In this document: in pieces, positions 32,645 through 56,716 of the stretch | Position numbering within the stretch: position 1 is the first letter of the stretch | How the letters are laid out: every line of letters starts with the position of its first letter | Source: Pseudoalteromonas sp. DL-6 | GTDB lineage: Bacteria; Pseudomonadota; Gammaproteobacteria; Enterobacterales; Alteromonadaceae | DNA: 64,000 nucleotides | Direction: 5' to 3' | Assembly: GCF_004328665.1 (NCBI RefSeq) | Contig: NZ_CP019770.1 | Span: 186,001 to 250,000, forward strand | Notes under the pieces: generated by a model | What the model saw: only the letters and a program-made list of their open reading frames with translations | Database searches by the model: none | Told to the model about the DNA's origin: nothing | Made by a program: the position numbers and the translations under genes

Positions 32645-32674
32645 AAAGAAAAGCGACCTAGGTCGCTTTTACTG
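32645..32674 (-). terminator. Terminator of the lysine-riboswitch operon
   Basis: AAAAGCGACC and GGTCGCTTTT form a 10 bp perfect palindrome around TA; the minus strand continues into Ts. It lies about 55 bases past the stop at 32729. Confidence 0.8.
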
Positions 32675-32728: not shown

Positions 32729-33850
32729 CTAAAGCTCAAAAACGTTTGTAAAAAACTTATAAAGTTCAGTTCCTTGGTTCACACTGGCTGAGGCAAAGTG
32801 CAATATTGCAATCGCATCAAGATCAAAGCTTAATGTTTGCAGTGGTTGCTCGCTTAAGTAGCGTTCCATTCGCAGTATTTTTGCTATCGGTTCGCCCGCT
32901 TTAATGTGACCACCAAGCGGTGCTAGGTATTCAACCATGCCACCCATAGGCGCATAGTAAGCAATATAATCATTTAGTTGGCAGCCATATCTTGTCATCA
33001 CTTTGGGCTTGTAGGGCGCATCAGCAAATACCTGTTTGTGATTAAGGTAACTTAAAATACTTTGAGCATCGTCAAGTGCCGCGCTTAAATCTATTTTCTC
33101 TTGGCTGCCAAGCTCTACCGTAAAGGCTTCAACTTGCACGTTAAATTCACGGCCTTGCTGAGCAAGTTGCTCGCTAAGTTGCCACCATGGACAAAAACTG
33201 GCTTCATCCATTGCGCCATCAAAGTCATTAGGGATCACTAGCACATGGGGAATATTAAAGTAACACGCACTTTCAGTGGCATATTCAGGGCAATATAAGT
33301 GCTGACTAGAAATAGGGCCGGTGTGTAAATCTAAAACAATATCAGCTTGATGCGCTAGTCTTTGTAAGTTTAGCGCTATGCGTTTACCCGTTGTTAAACG
33401 ATAGTCTGGGCCATTAAGTTGTTGCTCAACGTCACTAATTAGCGCTGCTTTAAACGCTGTTTTTAGAATCTGATCATCGGCATCGCTATACTGCTTTGCA
33501 AACTGTGATGCAAGCTGATTATTACAGTGATACATACGATTCCAATTTGTGCCGGTAATAGGATCGAATCGGCCAAGCGTAAATTCGCCTGACTTTTGAT
33601 TACAGCCAATGGGGTTAGCGTAGGGAACTAAGGTAATATCACCTTTTAAATTAAGGTTTTTTAGCTGTTCAAGTAGCTGATAAATAACCGCGTTACCTTG
33701 CACTTCGGCGCCATGCATATTAGCTTGTATATACACACTTGGGCCCGTGCCATCGCCTTTTAAACGATACACAGGAATGGTCAGTGGTAGGCCATTTGCT
33801 ACTTCACCAACTACAATGTTTTCTTGGCTTATAGCTGTGGTGTTATTCAT
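32729..33850 (-). CDS. M14/AstE-AspA family deacylase, candidate succinyl-DAP desuccinylase
   Basis: The 373-residue product is a zinc amidohydrolase of the succinylglutamate desuccinylase/aspartoacylase family. Zinc ligands are His46 and Glu49 (ANMHGAEVQGN) and His176 (DLHTG). The substrate-binding NWNR is at 102-105, and the likely catalytic Glu is 246 (TVELGS). The C-terminal domain is the usual beta barrel. It is the last gene of the lysine-riboswitch operon, 5 bases after the lysA-like gene. Removal of the succinyl group left by the dapD-like enzyme, in place of DapE, is my inference. AstE function is less likely, as the ast genes are elsewhere. Confidence 0.82.
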   Translation of the reverse strand: MNNTTAISQENIVVGEVANGLPLTIPVYRLKGDGTGPSVYIQANMHGAEVQGNAVIYQLLEQLKNLNLKGDITLVPYANPIGCNQKSGEFTLGRFDPITGTNWNRMYHCNNQLASQFAKQYSDADDQILKTAFKAALISDVEQQLNGPDYRLTTGKRIALNLQRLAHQADIVLDLHTGPISSQHLYCPEYATESACYFNIPHVLVIPNDFDGAMDEASFCPWWQLSEQLAQQGREFNVQVEAFTVELGSQEKIDLSAALDDAQSILSYLNHKQVFADAPYKPKVMTRYGCQLNDYIAYYAPMGGMVEYLAPLGGHIKAGEPIAKILRMERYLSEQPLQTLSFDLDAIAILHFASASVNQGTELYKFFTNVFEL

Positions 33851-33855
33851 CTTTT

Positions 33856-35061
33856 TTACCTCAAGTAGTGGCTTGCATCTTCTGCTTGGCGAATACAGTT
33901 GATTTCGCCATGGTGTATAACATATTCACCGGCCAGTTCATGACATAAAAAGTACGGCATGCTTTCGGTAAAACCATAAGCACCGCATTGACTAAACACC
34001 AGCCAGTCATGTTCATTTAAATCGCCCGGCAATTGGTGCTCCCCTAAGCAATCCAGCGCGGTACATAATGGCCCATATAGGCTCATTGATTGGTTTACTG
34101 CGTTTGAATCTCGTAATAAACGCGCAGGGAAATTTTGACTGGTGACCGCTGGGCGCAATAAATGATTAATACCGCCGCTCATAATCACCTGTTGTTGACT
34201 GTAGTTTAATTTGCGTTCAACCACAGGTGTGGCGTAGTGGCCGCATTCGCCGACAGCATAGCGACCTAGTTCCATCCACAGCTCTTTAACACCCGCATCG
34301 CGTTTAATTTTTGCAAGGGCTGCTATTAATGCATCCCAGCTTAAAGTCGGATCATTAAGGGTGTAAGGAATACCTAAGCCGCCACCTAAATCCAGAATAT
34401 TAAGGTTAATACTTAAATGCTCAGCAAGTTGCCTTAACGGCGCAATCATTTGCGCCCACAGATCGGCAAGTTTGTCGCTGCTGAGCATGTTACCCCACTG
34501 AAAAATATGTAGGCCATCAAAGCTCAGTGCTGTGTAGTCATTAGTATTTAGCGATTGCCATTCATCGCAGCCAAGCCCAAATGGGGTGAGGCTGTCGCCA
34601 CCTAGTGGGTTTTTATCACCCTCGGGCCAGCGTAATTGAACACGCAGCAAAACCTGTAACTGACACTGCTGGGCAATCGCTTGCTCGTTGAGCCAACGTA
34701 CCTGATTGAGACTTTCGGCCACAAAGGTACGTACGCCACGCGCAATAAAGTGCTTAATTTGTTTAGGGCTTTTTGCAGGCCCCGTGTTGAGCACGCGTTC
34801 ACTGTTAATTCCTTGGGCAAGTACTTGCTCAAGCTCGCCTTTACTGGCGACATCAAAGTTAAAACCAGCGTTATCTAAGCGATGGATCACGCTAGATAAC
34901 GGGTTCGCTTTAACTGCATACCAGAGTTTTACCTCGGTTTGTGCCACTAAACGGGTTAAATGTGTGTTCAATGAATCAAGATCATAAACAAAAAAGGGCG
35001 TATCAAGTTGGCTTGCTAGCTTATCAATAGCGCTTTTAACGGGCGTGCTCAAAAAGGTCAT
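33856..35061 (-). CDS. LysA-like PLP decarboxylase (fold type III)
   Basis: The 401-residue product has the PLP lysine Lys51 in YAVKANP, the phosphate loop GGGLG (226-230) and the ending SQCGAYGFTESM of alanine-racemase-fold decarboxylases. Two motifs differ from E. coli LysA: EPGR is replaced by ELGR (264-267), and the substrate-binding CESGD is replaced by CTALD (Cys333). The latter resembles the siderophore and exosortase-associated decarboxylases more than housekeeping LysA. Its place under a lysine riboswitch still argues for meso-diaminopimelate as substrate. The start overlaps the dapD-like stop by one base (TAATG). Confidence 0.82.
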   Translation of the reverse strand: MTFLSTPVKSAIDKLASQLDTPFFVYDLDSLNTHLTRLVAQTEVKLWYAVKANPLSSVIHRLDNAGFNFDVASKGELEQVLAQGINSERVLNTGPAKSPKQIKHFIARGVRTFVAESLNQVRWLNEQAIAQQCQLQVLLRVQLRWPEGDKNPLGGDSLTPFGLGCDEWQSLNTNDYTALSFDGLHIFQWGNMLSSDKLADLWAQMIAPLRQLAEHLSINLNILDLGGGLGIPYTLNDPTLSWDALIAALAKIKRDAGVKELWMELGRYAVGECGHYATPVVERKLNYSQQQVIMSGGINHLLRPAVTSQNFPARLLRDSNAVNQSMSLYGPLCTALDCLGEHQLPGDLNEHDWLVFSQCGAYGFTESMPYFLCHELAGEYVIHHGEINCIRQAEDASHYLR

Positions 35062-35801
35062 TAACGTAAAACCTCTTCCAGAAGTAATGATGCGTCACTT
35101 TGCTCGTCACGGTATTTAACAATTAAGGCACACGACATACTTAAGCCTTGAGCACGTGCCCAGTCGTTTGACGCAGGGCGAGAACCTGGGATCACAATCG
35201 CATATTCAGGGATTGCTTCGCCTTTATCAAGCTGGCGCTCATTAACGCAGTCATAAACAGGGATGGTTGCAGATAAGCGAACACCTGGGGCAAGTACCGC
35301 GCCTTTTTTAACCACCACGCCTTCAACAATCACACAGCCTGCACCGATGAATGCATCGTCTTCTATGACCACAGGGTTGGCGCCAATAGGCTCAAGTACC
35401 CCGCCTAATTGTACCGCAGCGCTCAAATGAACATTTTTACCCACTTGCGCACATGAGCCAACCAATGCGTGGCTATCTACCATAGTCCCCTCGTCAATAA
35501 AGGCGCCAATATTTACGTACGCAGGTGGCATAATAATAGTGCCTTTGGCGACATGTGCACCACGACGTACACTTGAACCACCTGGCACCATGCGAACGCC
35601 TGCTGTGGCTTCAAAGCATTGCGGCGCTAGATTATGTTTATCAACAAAGCCACCAGGAAACTCCATGTTAGTGCCGTTTTTAAACGCCTCTAAAATGCCT
35701 TGCTTTACTTCTACGTTAGCGTGCCATTGGCCGTTTTCGTCTTGTGTTGCTGCGCGAACTGCGCCCGTTTCTAAATTATTTAATAGTTCTAACCAGCTCA
35801 T
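35061..35801 (-). CDS. DapD-like tetrahydrodipicolinate N-succinyltransferase
   Basis: DapD acylates tetrahydrodipicolinate with succinyl-CoA in the diaminopimelate pathway. The 246-residue product has left-handed beta-helix hexapeptide repeats and the DapD core EGTMVDSHALVGSCAQVGKN, GGVLEPIGANPVVIEDDAFIG and the C-terminal PGSRP. E. coli DapD has 274 residues; the helical N-terminal domain is shortened here, so this is a divergent copy. Upstream it follows the dapA-like gene by 15 bases. The gene pair dapD-like/lysA-like also occurs in tabtoxin loci (tabB/tabA), an alternative reading. Confidence 0.85.
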   Translation of the reverse strand: MSWLELLNNLETGAVRAATQDENGQWHANVEVKQGILEAFKNGTNMEFPGGFVDKHNLAPQCFEATAGVRMVPGGSSVRRGAHVAKGTIIMPPAYVNIGAFIDEGTMVDSHALVGSCAQVGKNVHLSAAVQLGGVLEPIGANPVVIEDDAFIGAGCVIVEGVVVKKGAVLAPGVRLSATIPVYDCVNERQLDKGEAIPEYAIVIPGSRPASNDWARAQGLSMSCALIVKYRDEQSDASLLLEEVLR

Positions 35802-35816
35802 TATAAAAACCTGTAT

Positions 35817-36701
35817 TTAATGCCAAGATAAAATGGTGTTGTTTGCCGATGAAATGTCATCTGTGTGTGTCAGCTCAAGGTGTGTTAAAGGTGGACGTAA
35901 ATGCGGACTGCTAATACGCCCTTGTAAATGCATTAACACTTTGACTGGGATAGGGTTTGCTACTGAAAATAAGCTATTGATAGCGCTAGACCACTGGGCA
36001 AAAAGATTAGGGTGTTGGCCGCTTAAACTGCGCTTTACAAACTCATGAGTTTGCACTGGCCATGCATTGGCTGCAACCGACACTAAACCTTTTGCACCTG
36101 CTTGGGCAAAATAAGGCATGAGGGCATCGTCACCACTAAAAATGGCTAATTCAGGCGCTGCTTGTCGATAGGCTTCAAATTGAGAAATACAGCCACTGGC
36201 CTCTTTAAGTGCCCATAAATTTTTATGTTGTTTGAGGTTTTCAATGGTTGCAATAGGAATGCTAACCGCGCTACGTCCTGGCACATTATAAAGCATACAA
36301 GGGTGAGAACTGGCATCTAGCAGGCTTTCAAACCAATGCGTTTGCCCCAGTGCGCCTGGTTTGGCGTACAAAGGTGATCCAAGTAAAAAACCATGAATAG
36401 GCAGTTGGTTGCAGTAGTTAACCCATTCAAGCTGCTGCTTTAAGTTACTACCACCGACTGCAACCATAAGCGGGACGCTCGGCTGTAATTGGCAGACATG
36501 CTCTACGATGGCTTGCTGCTCTTTTAGGGTAAGGGCTAACCCTTCGCCAGTGCTACCAAGTAATAAAATGCCATTGTTAGCGGCTTCTTGCTCGGCCACC
36601 AAGGTATTTAAGGTTGCGTAATCAACTAGGCCATTTTGATCAAATGGGGTGATCAGTGCAGTCCATAAATGGAAATTGTTAATATTGAAGTTGTTGATCA
36701 T
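35817..36701 (-). CDS. dapA: DapA-like 4-hydroxy-tetrahydrodipicolinate synthase
   Basis: DapA condenses pyruvate with aspartate semialdehyde at the entry of the lysine branch. The 294-residue product has the Schiff-base Lys166 (LWALKEASG), Tyr138 and Arg143 (YNVPGRSA) and the threonine loop as GSTGEG (50-54), where E. coli has GTTGES. It is the first gene of the operon, about 360 bases after the predicted transcription start, behind a lysine riboswitch. Another, housekeeping dapA may exist outside the window. Confidence 0.88.
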   Translation of the reverse strand: MINNFNINNFHLWTALITPFDQNGLVDYATLNTLVAEQEAANNGILLLGSTGEGLALTLKEQQAIVEHVCQLQPSVPLMVAVGGSNLKQQLEWVNYCNQLPIHGFLLGSPLYAKPGALGQTHWFESLLDASSHPCMLYNVPGRSAVSIPIATIENLKQHKNLWALKEASGCISQFEAYRQAAPELAIFSGDDALMPYFAQAGAKGLVSVAANAWPVQTHEFVKRSLSGQHPNLFAQWSSAINSLFSVANPIPVKVLMHLQGRISSPHLRPPLTHLELTHTDDISSANNTILSWH

Positions 36702-36800
36702 CTCTCACGAACTTATAGGGCATTCGTCGAGTTATTGGCGGGTATTTAGGGTGCCGGACTCTTTGAATGTATTTATAATTCGAAGAGCGAATGGGCTTAA

Positions 36801-36825
36801 ATAATAAGGCGCACGGCCTTATTAT
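36801..36825 (-). promoter_or_regulatory. Hairpin in the riboswitch expression platform
   Basis: ATAATAAGG and CCTTATTAT form a 9 bp stem with a 7-base loop, 8 bases after the 3' strand of aptamer helix P1. On the minus strand it is followed by TTAAGCC, so the U-run is weak. It may be a terminator or part of a switching structure that controls entry into dapA. Confidence 0.5.
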
Positions 36826-36832
36826 ACTAAGA

Positions 36833-37003
36833 CCAGAAGCTCTCCACCAAATATGTTATTGGTGACAGTCGCTAGGATTCAACCTAGTCGCCCGAAGTAA
36901 CCTTTCACAAAAAAGTATTACCTCTCGGCGTTAATTCCCCTCACGTATGCTCAATGGAGTTTGCGCTCCTAACATACGCTACCTGAATAACGCACCTCTT
37001 CCA
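36833..37003 (-). promoter_or_regulatory. Lysine riboswitch (L box) aptamer
   Basis: Read on the minus strand, the conserved elements appear in order: GGAAGAGGTGCG, CAGGTAGCGTATG, GAGGGGAATTAACGCCGA, GTGAAAGGTTACTTCGGGCGAC, GACTGTC and GGTGGAGAGCTTCTGG-type closure. CTGGAAG at the 5' end pairs with CTTCTGG at the 3' end to form P1 with two wobbles. This is the lysine aptamer architecture known from lysC and dapA leaders. Lysine binding is expected to switch off the operon downstream. Confidence 0.9.
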
Positions 37004-37066
37004 GCCCTTTGCACTTGCTATTGAAAAATCAATCAGCAAATACAATGTAATAGGGTAAGTGTGGCG

Positions 37067-37195: not shown

Positions 37196-37900
37196 ATGGA
37201 AAAATTTAGCGATATTTATAAGCGTGCAGTAGAGCGAAAGGGCTCTGAAAAAATGCTTAAATTATTACTCGCAAAACCTTTATCAACAAAGCAACTCGTC
37301 ACATTAAGTGATGATGATTGGCTAGAAGAATTTACGCGGAAGGTTTTTCAAAGTGGTTTTTATTGGTCGGTGATCAACAGTAAATGGGCCGGATTTAGAG
37401 AGGTTTTTTGGGATTTCAGTGTTGAAAAACTATTGATGATGCCACCAGACATGTTAGAGCAAAAAGCCAGTGATGAGCGGATTGTACGCAATTATAAAAA
37501 AGTAAAAACCATTACTGAAAATGCGTATATGATCCACGAGGTTGCAGCGCAACACGGCAGCTTTAGTCAGTTTATTGCTAACTGGCCAAGTGAGGATATT
37601 ATTGGCTTGTGGGCCTATTTAAAAAAGCATGGTGCGAGGCTTGGTGGTAATACCGGTCCTTATGCGTTGCGTGCCTTAGGAAAAGATACTTTTTTACTTT
37701 CAAGGGATGTAGAGAGCTATTTGCGTGCCCATAAAATTATAGACGGTGGCTTACAAACTAAAAAGTCACTGATTGCAGCGCAGGCATTCTTCAATGAGCT
37801 ACAGCAACAAAGCGGCTTAAGTATGCAAGAGCTAAGCTTAATTGTCGCTTATGGTGTCGGCGATAACCGTGTAGGTATAAGCCAACAACAACAGGATTAA
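37196..37900 (+). CDS. DNA-3-methyladenine glycosylase I-like protein
   Basis: The 234-residue product resembles the TagI family: the segments FQSGFYWSVINSKWAGFREVFWDF (given in part: SGFYWSVI, AGFREVFWDF) and RIVRNYKKVKTITENA are its core. TagI removes 3-methyladenine from alkylated DNA. The zinc-binding Cys/His residues at the ends of E. coli TagI are not seen here (the N-terminus MEKFSDIYKRA lacks Cys), so substrate scope may differ. It is 2 bases upstream of selO and probably cotranscribed. Confidence 0.8.
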   Translation: MEKFSDIYKRAVERKGSEKMLKLLLAKPLSTKQLVTLSDDDWLEEFTRKVFQSGFYWSVINSKWAGFREVFWDFSVEKLLMMPPDMLEQKASDERIVRNYKKVKTITENAYMIHEVAAQHGSFSQFIANWPSEDIIGLWAYLKKHGARLGGNTGPYALRALGKDTFLLSRDVESYLRAHKIIDGGLQTKKSLIAAQAFFNELQQQSGLSMQELSLIVAYGVGDNRVGISQQQQD

Positions 37901-52554: not shown

Positions 52555-54129
<1,575 letters not shown>

Positions 54130-54214
54130 TCGCTAATTTAACTTCTCTAAGGGCAAACATTGTTTGCCCTTGCAGTTCCTATTTACCGTTATATATAAGG
54201 GAGTAAGCGGATTC

Positions 54215-55231
54215 ATGATGATCCTTCGCCCAATCCAAAAAAGTGATTATGCAGCTTTAGTAACCATCGCCGACGAGTCGGGACATGGCTTTACTTCTTT
54301 ACCTAATAACGAAGAGTTATTACAAAAGAAGATTGCACATTCTGTTAATTCATTTACAAAAACCACGTCACAACCCGGTGATGAAGGGTACTTATTTGTA
54401 CTTGAAGACACTGAAACTGGCGAAGTAGTTGGTACTTCAGGTATTGAAGCGGCAGTTGGCTTAGATGACGCATTTTATCATTACCATTTGAGTAAAGTGA
54501 TTCACTCTTCGCGCACGCTAGATGTATATAAAGCGGTAGATATTCTCACCCTTTGTAACGACTACACTGGGGCTACAGAGCTGTGTACGCTGTTTTTAAA
54601 AGACGGCTATCGTAAAAATTGTAACGGTAAGCTGCTTTCAAAAGCACGCTTTATGTTTATAAAACAACACCAGCAACGCTTTGCACAAACCGTTATCGCA
54701 GAAATGCGTGGCGTATCTGACGAAAACGGCAGTAGCCCATTTTGGCAATGGCTTGAAGAACACTTTTTCTCAATGGATTTCCCAACGGCAGATTACCTAA
54801 CGGGAATCGGGCAAAAAGTGTTTATTGCGGAGTTAATGCCTAAATACCCAATTTACGTCAATTTATTGAGTAAAGAAGCGCAAGCGGTTATTGGTCAAGT
54901 ACACGATAATACGCGCCCAGCTATTCAGTTATTAAAAAGCGAAGGCTTTACCTTTAATGGTTACGTTGACATTTTTGATGCGGGTCCAACCGTTGAAGCA
55001 AAAGTAGATAACATTGCCACCGTTCGTAATGCACAAAACTTTAGTGTTGAAATTGGCGAGATGACAGGCGATACCATGGTATTACTAGCCAATGATAAGC
55101 TTGAAGACTTTAGAGCAACCGTAGCGCCAATGGCATTTGATTCGCGTTCTAATAGCCTGGTGCTTACGCAAGAACTTGCTGATGCATTACATTTAAAATC
55201 GGGCGATTTTGTTACTGCTACCCCAGTTTAA
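54215..55231 (+). CDS. astA: Arginine N-succinyltransferase
   Basis: AstA transfers succinyl from succinyl-CoA to arginine, the first step of the AST pathway. The start at 54215 (MMILRPIQKSDYAALV) matches the E. coli N-terminus MMVIRP and has AGCGGA just upstream; the frame extends to 54164 without support. The 338-residue product shows GFTSLP, VHASK-like IHSSRTLDVY, MDFPTADYLTG and IAELMPKYPIY. It is between astC and astD. Confidence 0.95.
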   Translation: MMILRPIQKSDYAALVTIADESGHGFTSLPNNEELLQKKIAHSVNSFTKTTSQPGDEGYLFVLEDTETGEVVGTSGIEAAVGLDDAFYHYHLSKVIHSSRTLDVYKAVDILTLCNDYTGATELCTLFLKDGYRKNCNGKLLSKARFMFIKQHQQRFAQTVIAEMRGVSDENGSSPFWQWLEEHFFSMDFPTADYLTGIGQKVFIAELMPKYPIYVNLLSKEAQAVIGQVHDNTRPAIQLLKSEGFTFNGYVDIFDAGPTVEAKVDNIATVRNAQNFSVEIGEMTGDTMVLLANDKLEDFRATVAPMAFDSRSNSLVLTQELADALHLKSGDFVTATPV

Positions 55232-55246
55232 TTTAGGAGAAAGTAT

Positions 55247-56716
55247 ATGACTCATCCTGCACAATTTATTAATGGTCAATGGTCACAAGGCCAAGGCACA
55301 GAATTTAATTCAGTTAACCCTGCAAATAACGACGTTATTTGGCAGGCATCAGCTGCAAGCGCAGAGCAAGTAGATAGCGCTGTAGCATCAGCACGTGAAG
55401 CATTTTATAGCTGGGCTGATAAAAGCTTTAGTGAGCGTTTAGAAATTGTAAAAACCTTTGCTGCAACATTAAAAGAGCACAGTGAAGAGCTAGCGGTTGC
55501 TATTGCACAAGAAACAGGTAAACCACTTTGGGAAACACGTACTGAAGCGGGCGCTATGGTAGGTAAAATTGCCATTGCTGAAAAAGCATTTTTAGATCGT
55601 ACAGGTGATGTTGAAAACGCCATGCCGCAAGGTCGTGCGATGATCCGTCATAAGCCACATGGTGTTGTTGCTGTATTTGGTCCTTATAACTTCCCTGGGC
55701 ACTTACCAAATGGCCACATTGTACCTGCACTTTTAGCTGGTAATACTGTGGTATTTAAACCCTCTGAACTTACACCTATGGTGGCTGAGCTAACCCTTAA
55801 ACTATGGGAAAAAGCCGGTTTACCAGCAGGGGTTATTAACTTAGTACAAGGTGAAGTAGAAACAGGTAAAGCATTGGCGTCACACAAAGGCATTGATGGT
55901 TTATTCTTTACTGGGTCTTCACGTACGGGTCATATTTTACATGAACAGTTCGCAGGTCAACCAGGCAAGATTTTAGCGCTTGAAATGGGTGGTAATAATC
56001 CGCTAATCGTTAAAGATGCAGAAGATACCCTCGCTGTAGTGCATGATATTGTGCAGTCTGCGTTTATCTCAAGCGGCCAACGTTGTACATGTGCGCGTAA
56101 ACTATTTTTACCAACCGGCGCTAAAGGCGATGAAATTTTAGCGCGCTTAATTACAGCGACTAAAGCAATTAAAGTTGGTAACTACGACGATGCTGACCAA
56201 CCATTTATGGGCTCAATGATATCAGCGGCCGCTGCGGCTGGTATGGTTAAAGCACAAGATGAGTTAAAAGCCATGGGTGGAGAAGTATTAGTTGAGCTTG
56301 AGCACACAGCAAATACAGGTTTTGTTACACCGGGTATTATTGAGTGTACAAATATTAATGACTTCCCAGATGAAGAGCATTTTGGTCCACTTTTAAAAGT
56401 ATTCCGCTTTGACGATTTTGACCAAGCGATTGATAAAGCAAACGACACTAGCTTTGGTTTATCAGCAGGTTTACTAAGTGATAACCAAGCTGATTACGAT
56501 CATTTCTTACGTCGTATTCGTGCGGGTATTGTTAACTGGAACCGCCCAATTACAGGTGCTTCAAGTGCTGCACCGTTTGGTGGTATTGGTGCCTCAGGTA
56601 ATCACAGAGCAAGCGCTTATTACGCTGCCGATTACTGTGCATACCCTGTTGCGTCTGTGGAACTTGAAAAAGTAACCATGCCGGCAACATTAAGCCCAGG
56701 CTTAAAAATAGATTAA
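55247..56716 (+). CDS. astD: N-succinylglutamate 5-semialdehyde dehydrogenase
   Basis: AstD oxidises succinylglutamate semialdehyde with NAD+, the fourth AST step. The 489-residue aldehyde dehydrogenase has the catalytic Cys280 ([13 protein letters not shown]), the glutamate motif [10 protein letters not shown] and the NAD-binding FTGSSRTG. E. coli AstD has 492 residues. It starts 15 bases after astA with TAGGAGA as ribosome binding site. astB and astE, which complete the pathway, are not in this window. Confidence 0.96.

Follow-up and report, generated by a model that had tools for sequence, protein, structure and literature searches.

Can a hydrolase of the AstE/aspartoacylase type serve as desuccinylase in lysine biosynthesis, and in which relation would it then stand to DapE, the enzyme to which this step is generally ascribed and a much-studied antibacterial target? 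The question arises from a locus of Pseudoalteromonas sp. DL-6 (assembly GCF_004328665.1, contig NZ_CP019770.1, positions 186,001 to 250,000; this whole stretch of 64,000 nucleotides is called the window, and positions are counted from its first letter). Behind a lysine riboswitch, the window carries four head-to-tail genes on the minus strand (36701-32729), namely dapA2, dapD2, lysA2 and the gene of the hydrolase, here named M14 (Table 1). We lean, with some reserve, towards the reading that this operon is a second, lysine-repressed branch of lysine synthesis, with M14 acting as N-succinyl-LL-diaminopimelate (N-succinyl-LL-DAP) desuccinylase in parallel to DapE and able to take over its task. 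The first-pass annotation of this DNA had proposed that M14 replaces DapE. This fails for the organism itself, whereas the more general idea of an AstE-type hydrolase as lysine-pathway desuccinylase gained from the riboswitch with its varied partner genes and from the loss of dapE in one relative, G195.

Operon structure and lysine riboswitch

The riboswitch in front of the four genes, already suspected in the first-pass annotation, proved to be a full-length RF00168 aptamer (101.6 bits), and together with a DapA over the cut-off of its equivalog model it identifies the locus as a lysine-riboswitch operon. Only two RF00168 matches were detected in the genome, one before this operon and one before lysC, which encodes the lysine-sensitive aspartokinase 3. 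The minimum free energy fold of the leader (36702-37010) contains a hairpin ahead of dapA2, the z value of -4.11 against 100 shuffles applying to the whole stretch. This hairpin is absent from the list of the consensus terminator scan; with the adjoining T-rich stretch it forms a putative expression platform, possibly a transcription switch. At the other side, the hairpin at 32670-32649 likely marks the operon end, but terminator-like matches of this kind are no commoner than in shuffled sequences and are expected by chance at such a rate.

Canonical lysine genes in the genome

The operon indeed contains no dapE, as had been noted before, but the same cannot be said of the genome (3.9 Mb, two contigs). 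The genome-wide search for canonical genes recovered dapE (G000:C1:1409768-1410874, 552.7 bits), dapD (482.6 bits) and lysA (538 bits, adjoining a dapF-like gene), so there is no gap to fill. These three genes are without a lysine riboswitch, while the second set is lysine-regulated. The strict version of the proposal, an organism without DapE in which M14 fills the gap, is refuted by the canonical dapE and can practically be given up, since it is only the operon that lacks the gene. The alternative that the first-pass annotation had kept in reserve, a second copy of the pathway, was right; canonical dapD, dapE and lysA exist besides the operon. The family as a whole shows the same: full-length M14 (best E value 2.1e-70 or lower, counted by hand) occurs in 122 of 196 family genomes including the own one, and DapE exceeds its cut-off in 191 of the 196, among them 119 of the 122 with M14. 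A related version of the DapE gap survives for G195, as discussed below.

A second DapE-like M20 protein was also observed in the genome (G000:C1:1008663-1009766, locus L002). It barely exceeds the DapE cut-off (364.1 versus 361.8 bits) and sits, judged by eye, between a MATE-type transporter-like and an acyltransferase-like gene.

M14 and its nearest relatives

M14 matches the fold model AstE_AspA_cat (PF24827, E=1.2e-29). All 20 aligned relatives share His46, Glu49 and His176, the zinc ligands expected in this family, as well as E246, R94, N102, N104 and R105. This agrees with the earlier assignment to the AstE/aspartoacylase family with these very ligands, and the fold model together with the His-Glu-His residues characterizes M14 as an AstE_AspA zinc deacylase. 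The catalytic residues are common to lysine-linked and stand-alone M14 proteins, including that of G195. No AstE equivalog match was obtained at E<=1e-3 among the NCBIfam models, where the deacetylase DoeB is the sole relative of M14, and no match to the M20 family, the fold of DapE, was found at the same threshold. With DapE, M14 would share the proposed reaction, the metal-dependent hydrolysis and the partners of the lysine pathway, but it has the AstE_AspA instead of the M20 fold and coexists with DapE in most family genomes that carry it. With AstE, aspartoacylase and DoeB it has the fold family, the His-Glu-His site and the hydrolysis of N-acyl amino acids in common, but it differs from them in the missing AstE equivalog match, the low DoeB score (33.1 bits, cut-off 402.7) and the lysine-riboswitch context. 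Nearest are the solved structures 3fmc and 3lwu, titled '(putative) succinylglutamate desuccinylase/aspartoacylase', which align with M14 almost end to end (455.5 and 445.8 bits). In the portions compared by eye, the M14 of locus L199, whose gene follows a riboswitch and lysC, hardly differs from 3fmc.

Another AstE_AspA-like protein occurs in the same bacterial family (L230:364-1422, L231:627-1730, L232:647-1738, L233:717-1751). It mostly adjoins an ATP-grasp-like gene, and the protein of L230 comes nearest to DoeB (90.4 bits, cut-off 402.7).

Operon forms among relatives

All surveyed loci were fetched by means of M14, hence its own presence is given by selection, but the kinds of its neighbours are not. 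Altogether 137 M14 loci were scanned (80, a further 56, and L210), 40 of them also for RNA families. Within the set of 80, dapD2 and lysA2 precede M14 in 79 loci and dapA2 does so as well in 75, always in the same gene order; the association of the four genes is not due to chance, and the conservation asked for in the first-pass annotation is real. Besides the four-gene form, riboswitch operons ending in M14 appear as lysC-M14, dapA-M14, dapD-lysA-M14 and lysC-dapA-dapD-lysA-M14. In 11 of the 137 loci (L140-L142, L198-L203, L206, L207), each with a riboswitch, lysC is the gene immediately preceding M14, in the same orientation; it also stands before the complete set of four in all six loci of family f16 (L192-L197), with a riboswitch in 4/4 scanned. 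For L140, L192 and L199, NCBIfam likewise gave the name LysC. Only dapA2 and M14 remain in L146, L147, L148 and L160, all behind a riboswitch. LysA2 is absent from these four genomes, and therefore the lysine link of M14 is independent of LysA2. The combination dapD2-lysA2-M14 without dapA2 was found in L082, L087 and L150, and in L205 a dapB-like gene (TIGR00036, 106.7 bits, under the cut-off of 122) precedes these three genes. Neither dapE nor dapF was found in any of the 137 loci. One of them (L152) has an ArgD-like gene on the other strand at a distance of 6.7 kb, and LysC-like matches in L051 and L052 lie 3.6-5 kb from M14, again on the other strand. RF00168 was detected at the operon in 31 of the 40 loci scanned; it is absent from eight stand-alone M14 loci (L126, L128, L130, L132, L136, L143, L204, L210) and from L205.

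In a tree of 61 M14 proteins the operon types cluster. The dapA2-M14 form is found twice among relatives with four genes, although the strongly supported branches force one origin only; the tree comes from a quick method that leaves 25 of its 58 inner branches open, and the branch of L205 is very long.

Two observations concern gene decay. Between the riboswitch and dapD2 of L090 lies an apparent dapA remnant of 117 amino acids (L090:5497-5850), which suggests that the loss of dapA is under way. In genus g36, the other members of which have lysC-M14, one M14 match (G077:C10:1834-2853) includes an in-frame TAG, possibly due to decay or to a sequencing error.

Loss of dapE in a relative

The clearest case of a missing DapE is G195 (completeness 100, contamination 1), in which the DapE model found no protein at E<=1e-20, whereas the same search was positive in 11 of 14 control genomes. 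The place of the gene could be located via the dapE locus of its sister G179 (L208). In the sisters G179, G002 and G160, dapE is flanked by an arsC-like gene on one side and a vanY-like gene on the other; on a single contig of G195, 33 bp separate these two genes (L223:7568-7921 and L223:7955-8635), and the outer neighbours are in place. Nevertheless, G195 retains DapD (L224:4311-5144), the dapF-like and lysA genes (L225) and M14 (L210:8754-9923). A cell that has DapD and LysA yet lacks DapE would need another desuccinylase, for which M14 with its conserved catalytic residues is the obvious candidate.

Canonical DapE is missing while M14 is present in three further genomes, G118 (97% complete), G223 (92%, outside the family) and G076 (84%). 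G097 is without both DapD and DapE. As a separate observation, 11 of the 196 genomes have no DapD over the TIGR00965 cut-off (G004, G047, G048, G054, G089, G090, G097, G117, G141, G161, G180), and all of these except G097 have DapE over its cut-off; possibly they use another type of DapD, TIGR03536. The four-gene operon is found in one of them, G048 (85% complete), whose best TIGR00965 match is weak (1.0e-64), as for DapD2.

Proposed mechanism

In the mechanism that we infer from genes and genomic context, both for the substrates and for the direction of regulation, DapA2 would make 4-hydroxy-tetrahydrodipicolinate, which DapB, encoded elsewhere, would reduce. DapD2 would then acylate the product, probably with succinyl-CoA, and the second amino group may come from a transaminase of the ArgD/AstC type. 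The first-pass annotation had pointed to the AstC/ArgD protein at 52924, and this protein exceeds the cut-off of the acetylornithine/succinyldiaminopimelate transaminase model (NF003468, 735.1 versus 522). M14 would strip the succinyl group from N-succinyl-LL-DAP, alongside DapE and not because DapE is missing, and LysA2 would finish the route to lysine. Plentiful lysine is expected to shut the operon off through the riboswitch, while DAP for the cell wall would still be provided by the canonical genes without a lysine riboswitch. In lineages that dropped dapE, M14 would carry the desuccinylation alone. Regarding the origin of its substrate, three genomes with dapA2-M14 only (G003, G052, G087) have a single canonical TIGR00965 DapD each, and G139 has an additional unidentified TIGR00965 match. 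Since the dapA2-M14 genomes are without LysA2 and three of them have this single DapD, the substrate of M14 probably can be delivered by the ordinary DapD.

Several points weigh against a parallel desuccinylase. M14 would be redundant in 119 of the 122 family genomes that carry it, since these also have DapE, and a clean loss of DapE is seen in one genome only. The missing DapE of G118, G223 and G076 could be explained by assembly gaps, and G136 (88% complete) has DapD with neither DapE nor M14. Moreover, one large clade (44-51% identity) has stand-alone M14 without lysC, dapA2, dapD2 and lysA2, and in the riboswitch-lysC unit of the own genome no M14 was seen within the stretch covered, which reaches just past lysC. 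The choice of loci by M14 would miss similar operons without it. Finally, no NCBIfam equivalog covers M14, with DoeB as the distant nearest model, the structures 3fmc and 3lwu bear only names of the superfamily type, and no member of the M14 group with known activity was met.

LysA2 and a possible route to lysine without free DAP

It is conceivable, though we regard it as doubtful, that LysA2 decarboxylates N-succinyl-LL-DAP to N2-succinyl-L-lysine, from which M14 then releases L-lysine. Such a route would bypass DapE, DapF and canonical LysA and would leave the cell-wall DAP pool untouched. It would fit the gene order dapA-dapD-lysA-M14, which mirrors the order of the reactions, as well as the absence of dapF and dapE from the M14 loci. 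Further arguments come from LysA2 itself, which stays below the cut-off of the LysA equivalog TIGR01048 (189.5 versus 297.9 bits). All 107 distinct LysA2 proteins have the lysine binding pyridoxal phosphate (PLP), the Cys of CE, and the Arg residues of both ELGR and LRP. In comparison with three canonical LysA, the Glu of the CE motif is replaced by Thr in 107/107, and the Tyr of RPxLY by Thr in 104 and by Ala in the remaining three. In LysA, the distal carboxylate of meso-DAP is bound by both Arg together with the Tyr, and its distal amine by the CE Glu; the loss of this Glu would fit a substrate with an acylated distal amine. A profile of 33 LysA2 proteins matched SbnH best among PDB entries (6knh, 189.6 bits), followed by BtrK (166), and the DAP decarboxylase structures scored lower (155.5-98.3 bits among the matches listed at E<=1e-25). 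By sequence profile LysA2 is closest to the SbnH/BtrK group of N-acyl amino acid decarboxylases, whereas an AlphaFold2 model (predicted local distance difference test score 87.2) gave tied Z values for this group and the DAP decarboxylases. Judged from these residues and scores, LysA2 is a distinct subfamily, new here and missed in the first-pass annotation, and not an ordinary LysA. Of 54 listed genomes with LysA2-type loci, 52 encode canonical LysA as well; it was not found in G120 (78% complete) and G286 (93%, about 450 contigs).

According to the excerpts of PMC7857480 used here, SbnH decarboxylates N-citryl-L-2,3-diaminopropionate and BtrK carrier-bound glutamate. In the profile comparison both stand nearest to LysA2 among solved structures, and they likewise have CT in place of the CE motif, but they serve siderophore and antibiotic pathways, unlike LysA2 with its lysine context. 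With regard to M14, decarboxylation before desuccinylation is compatible with the parallel branch that we prefer, because both substrates carry the N-succinyl group on the same L-amino acid centre. A joint claim, namely that DapD2, LysA2 and M14 form a lysine pathway without free DAP and that M14 is in addition a non-homologous desuccinylase displacing DapE in at least one lineage (G195), is likewise regarded as doubtful.

DapD2 and the acyl group

That DapD2 uses acetyl-CoA or another donor, and that M14 is accordingly an N-acyl-LL-DAP deacylase in a branch chemically separate from the succinyl one, appears unlikely. The short DapD of 246 residues, noted as such in the first-pass annotation, exceeds the cut-off of the succinyltransferase model NF008808 (293 versus 204), stays below that of TIGR00965 (182.9 versus 375.4) and far below that of the acetyl model TIGR03532 (99.5 versus 231.75); its PDB matches also favour succinyltransferases (174.1 versus 90.3 bits). 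Furthermore, G003, G052 and G087 with their single canonical-type DapD argue against an acetyl branch. On the other hand, of the DapD active-site residues Asp D141 and Glu E189, only the Asp of MVD is kept in 97/97 DapD2, whereas the Glu of RSE is replaced by Val or Ile in 97/97, which makes the acyl donor uncertain. Likewise, SAA or SAG stands in place of SGG and His or Asn in place of the Trp of MVDTW, and the only NCBIfam relative of M14, DoeB, is a deacetylase. The family scores nevertheless favour succinyl-CoA as the probable donor.

Tabtoxin clusters hold lysA- and dapD-like genes, and the duplicates of dapA, dapD and lysA with divergent active sites could likewise point to a tabtoxin-like or other lysine-derived compound. 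However, we consider such a specialised product very unlikely in view of the lysine riboswitch, the lysC gene in first position in one family, the wide conservation and the reduced lysC-M14 and dapA-M14 forms; also, no further biosynthetic or export genes were noticed among the neighbouring open reading frames read. That M14 is the AstE of the arginine succinyltransferase pathway, for which the shared fold superfamily and the window's astC/argD, astA and astD, beside which no astE was seen, could be quoted, is highly improbable given the missing AstE model match at E<=1e-3, the lysine riboswitch and the lysine-gene partners.

Relation to earlier work and implications

The lysine-riboswitch operon of Pseudoalteromonas has been printed as dapA-dapD-lysA-hypothetical1-hypothetical2 (PMC5584792). 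As far as the parts of that source considered here tell, it is the same operon, with M14 left unnamed and taken as having arisen in Pseudoalteromonas, and these parts make no mention of DapE, lysC-M14 or dapA-M14. For Colwellia psychrerythraea the same parts place a lysine riboswitch ahead of dapD, in agreement with the loci without dapA found here. A riboswitch-lysC arrangement in Shewanella was already published, as the portion of PMC2659441 at hand shows. No link between M14 and lysine synthesis was recognised in the literature searched, with subscription journals mostly outside its scope.

If M14 acts as proposed, the pathway would have a second desuccinylase of another fold, with solved relatives that have no assigned function, which bears on the assumption that DapE alone performs this step. 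Where a DapE gene is missing in other organisms, M14-type enzymes could then be candidates to look for. In the sections of the GapMind study considered (PMC7311316), Pedobacter is without a convincing DapE candidate, an unexplained gap, and the gap of Echinicola concerns DapC and DapE, or DapL. Should LysA2 act on a succinylated intermediate, lysine would be made without free diaminopimelate, a new branch of the textbook pathway, and the lysine supply would be uncoupled from the cell-wall DAP pool.

Further features of the window

Table 1. Features of the lysine-riboswitch operon and the distant transaminase gene in the window.
Feature	Position	Strand	Evidence
Lysine riboswitch aptamer RF00168	36829..37008	-	cmscan 101.6 bits, threshold 30, model 1-182/182
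Leader between aptamer and dapA2	36702..36828	-	hairpin ~36825-36801, then weak T-rich stretch
dapA2, 4-hydroxy-tetrahydrodipicolinate synthase, 294 aa	35817..36701	-	TIGR00674 260.6, cut-off 206.15
dapD2, short tetrahydrodipicolinate N-acyl(succinyl)transferase, 246 aa	35061..35801	-	NF008808 293, cut-off 204
lysA2, alanine-racemase-fold PLP decarboxylase diverged from LysA, 401 aa	33856..35061	-	TIGR01048 189.5, below 297.9
M14, AstE/aspartoacylase-fold hydrolase, 373 aa	32729..33850	-	PF24827 E=1.2e-29
Terminator-like hairpin 3' of M14	32649..32670	-	9-pair stem and T-rich tail
ArgD/AstC/DapC-type transaminase	52924..54129	+	NF003468 735.1, cut-off 522

At 52924-56716, astC/argD, astA and astD lie together, and by eye no astB or astE was recognised among the next open reading frames. 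Divergent to the operon, the region 37196-37900 encodes a protein with weak similarity to the methyladenine glycosylase Tag (36.8 bits, cut-off 232.5).

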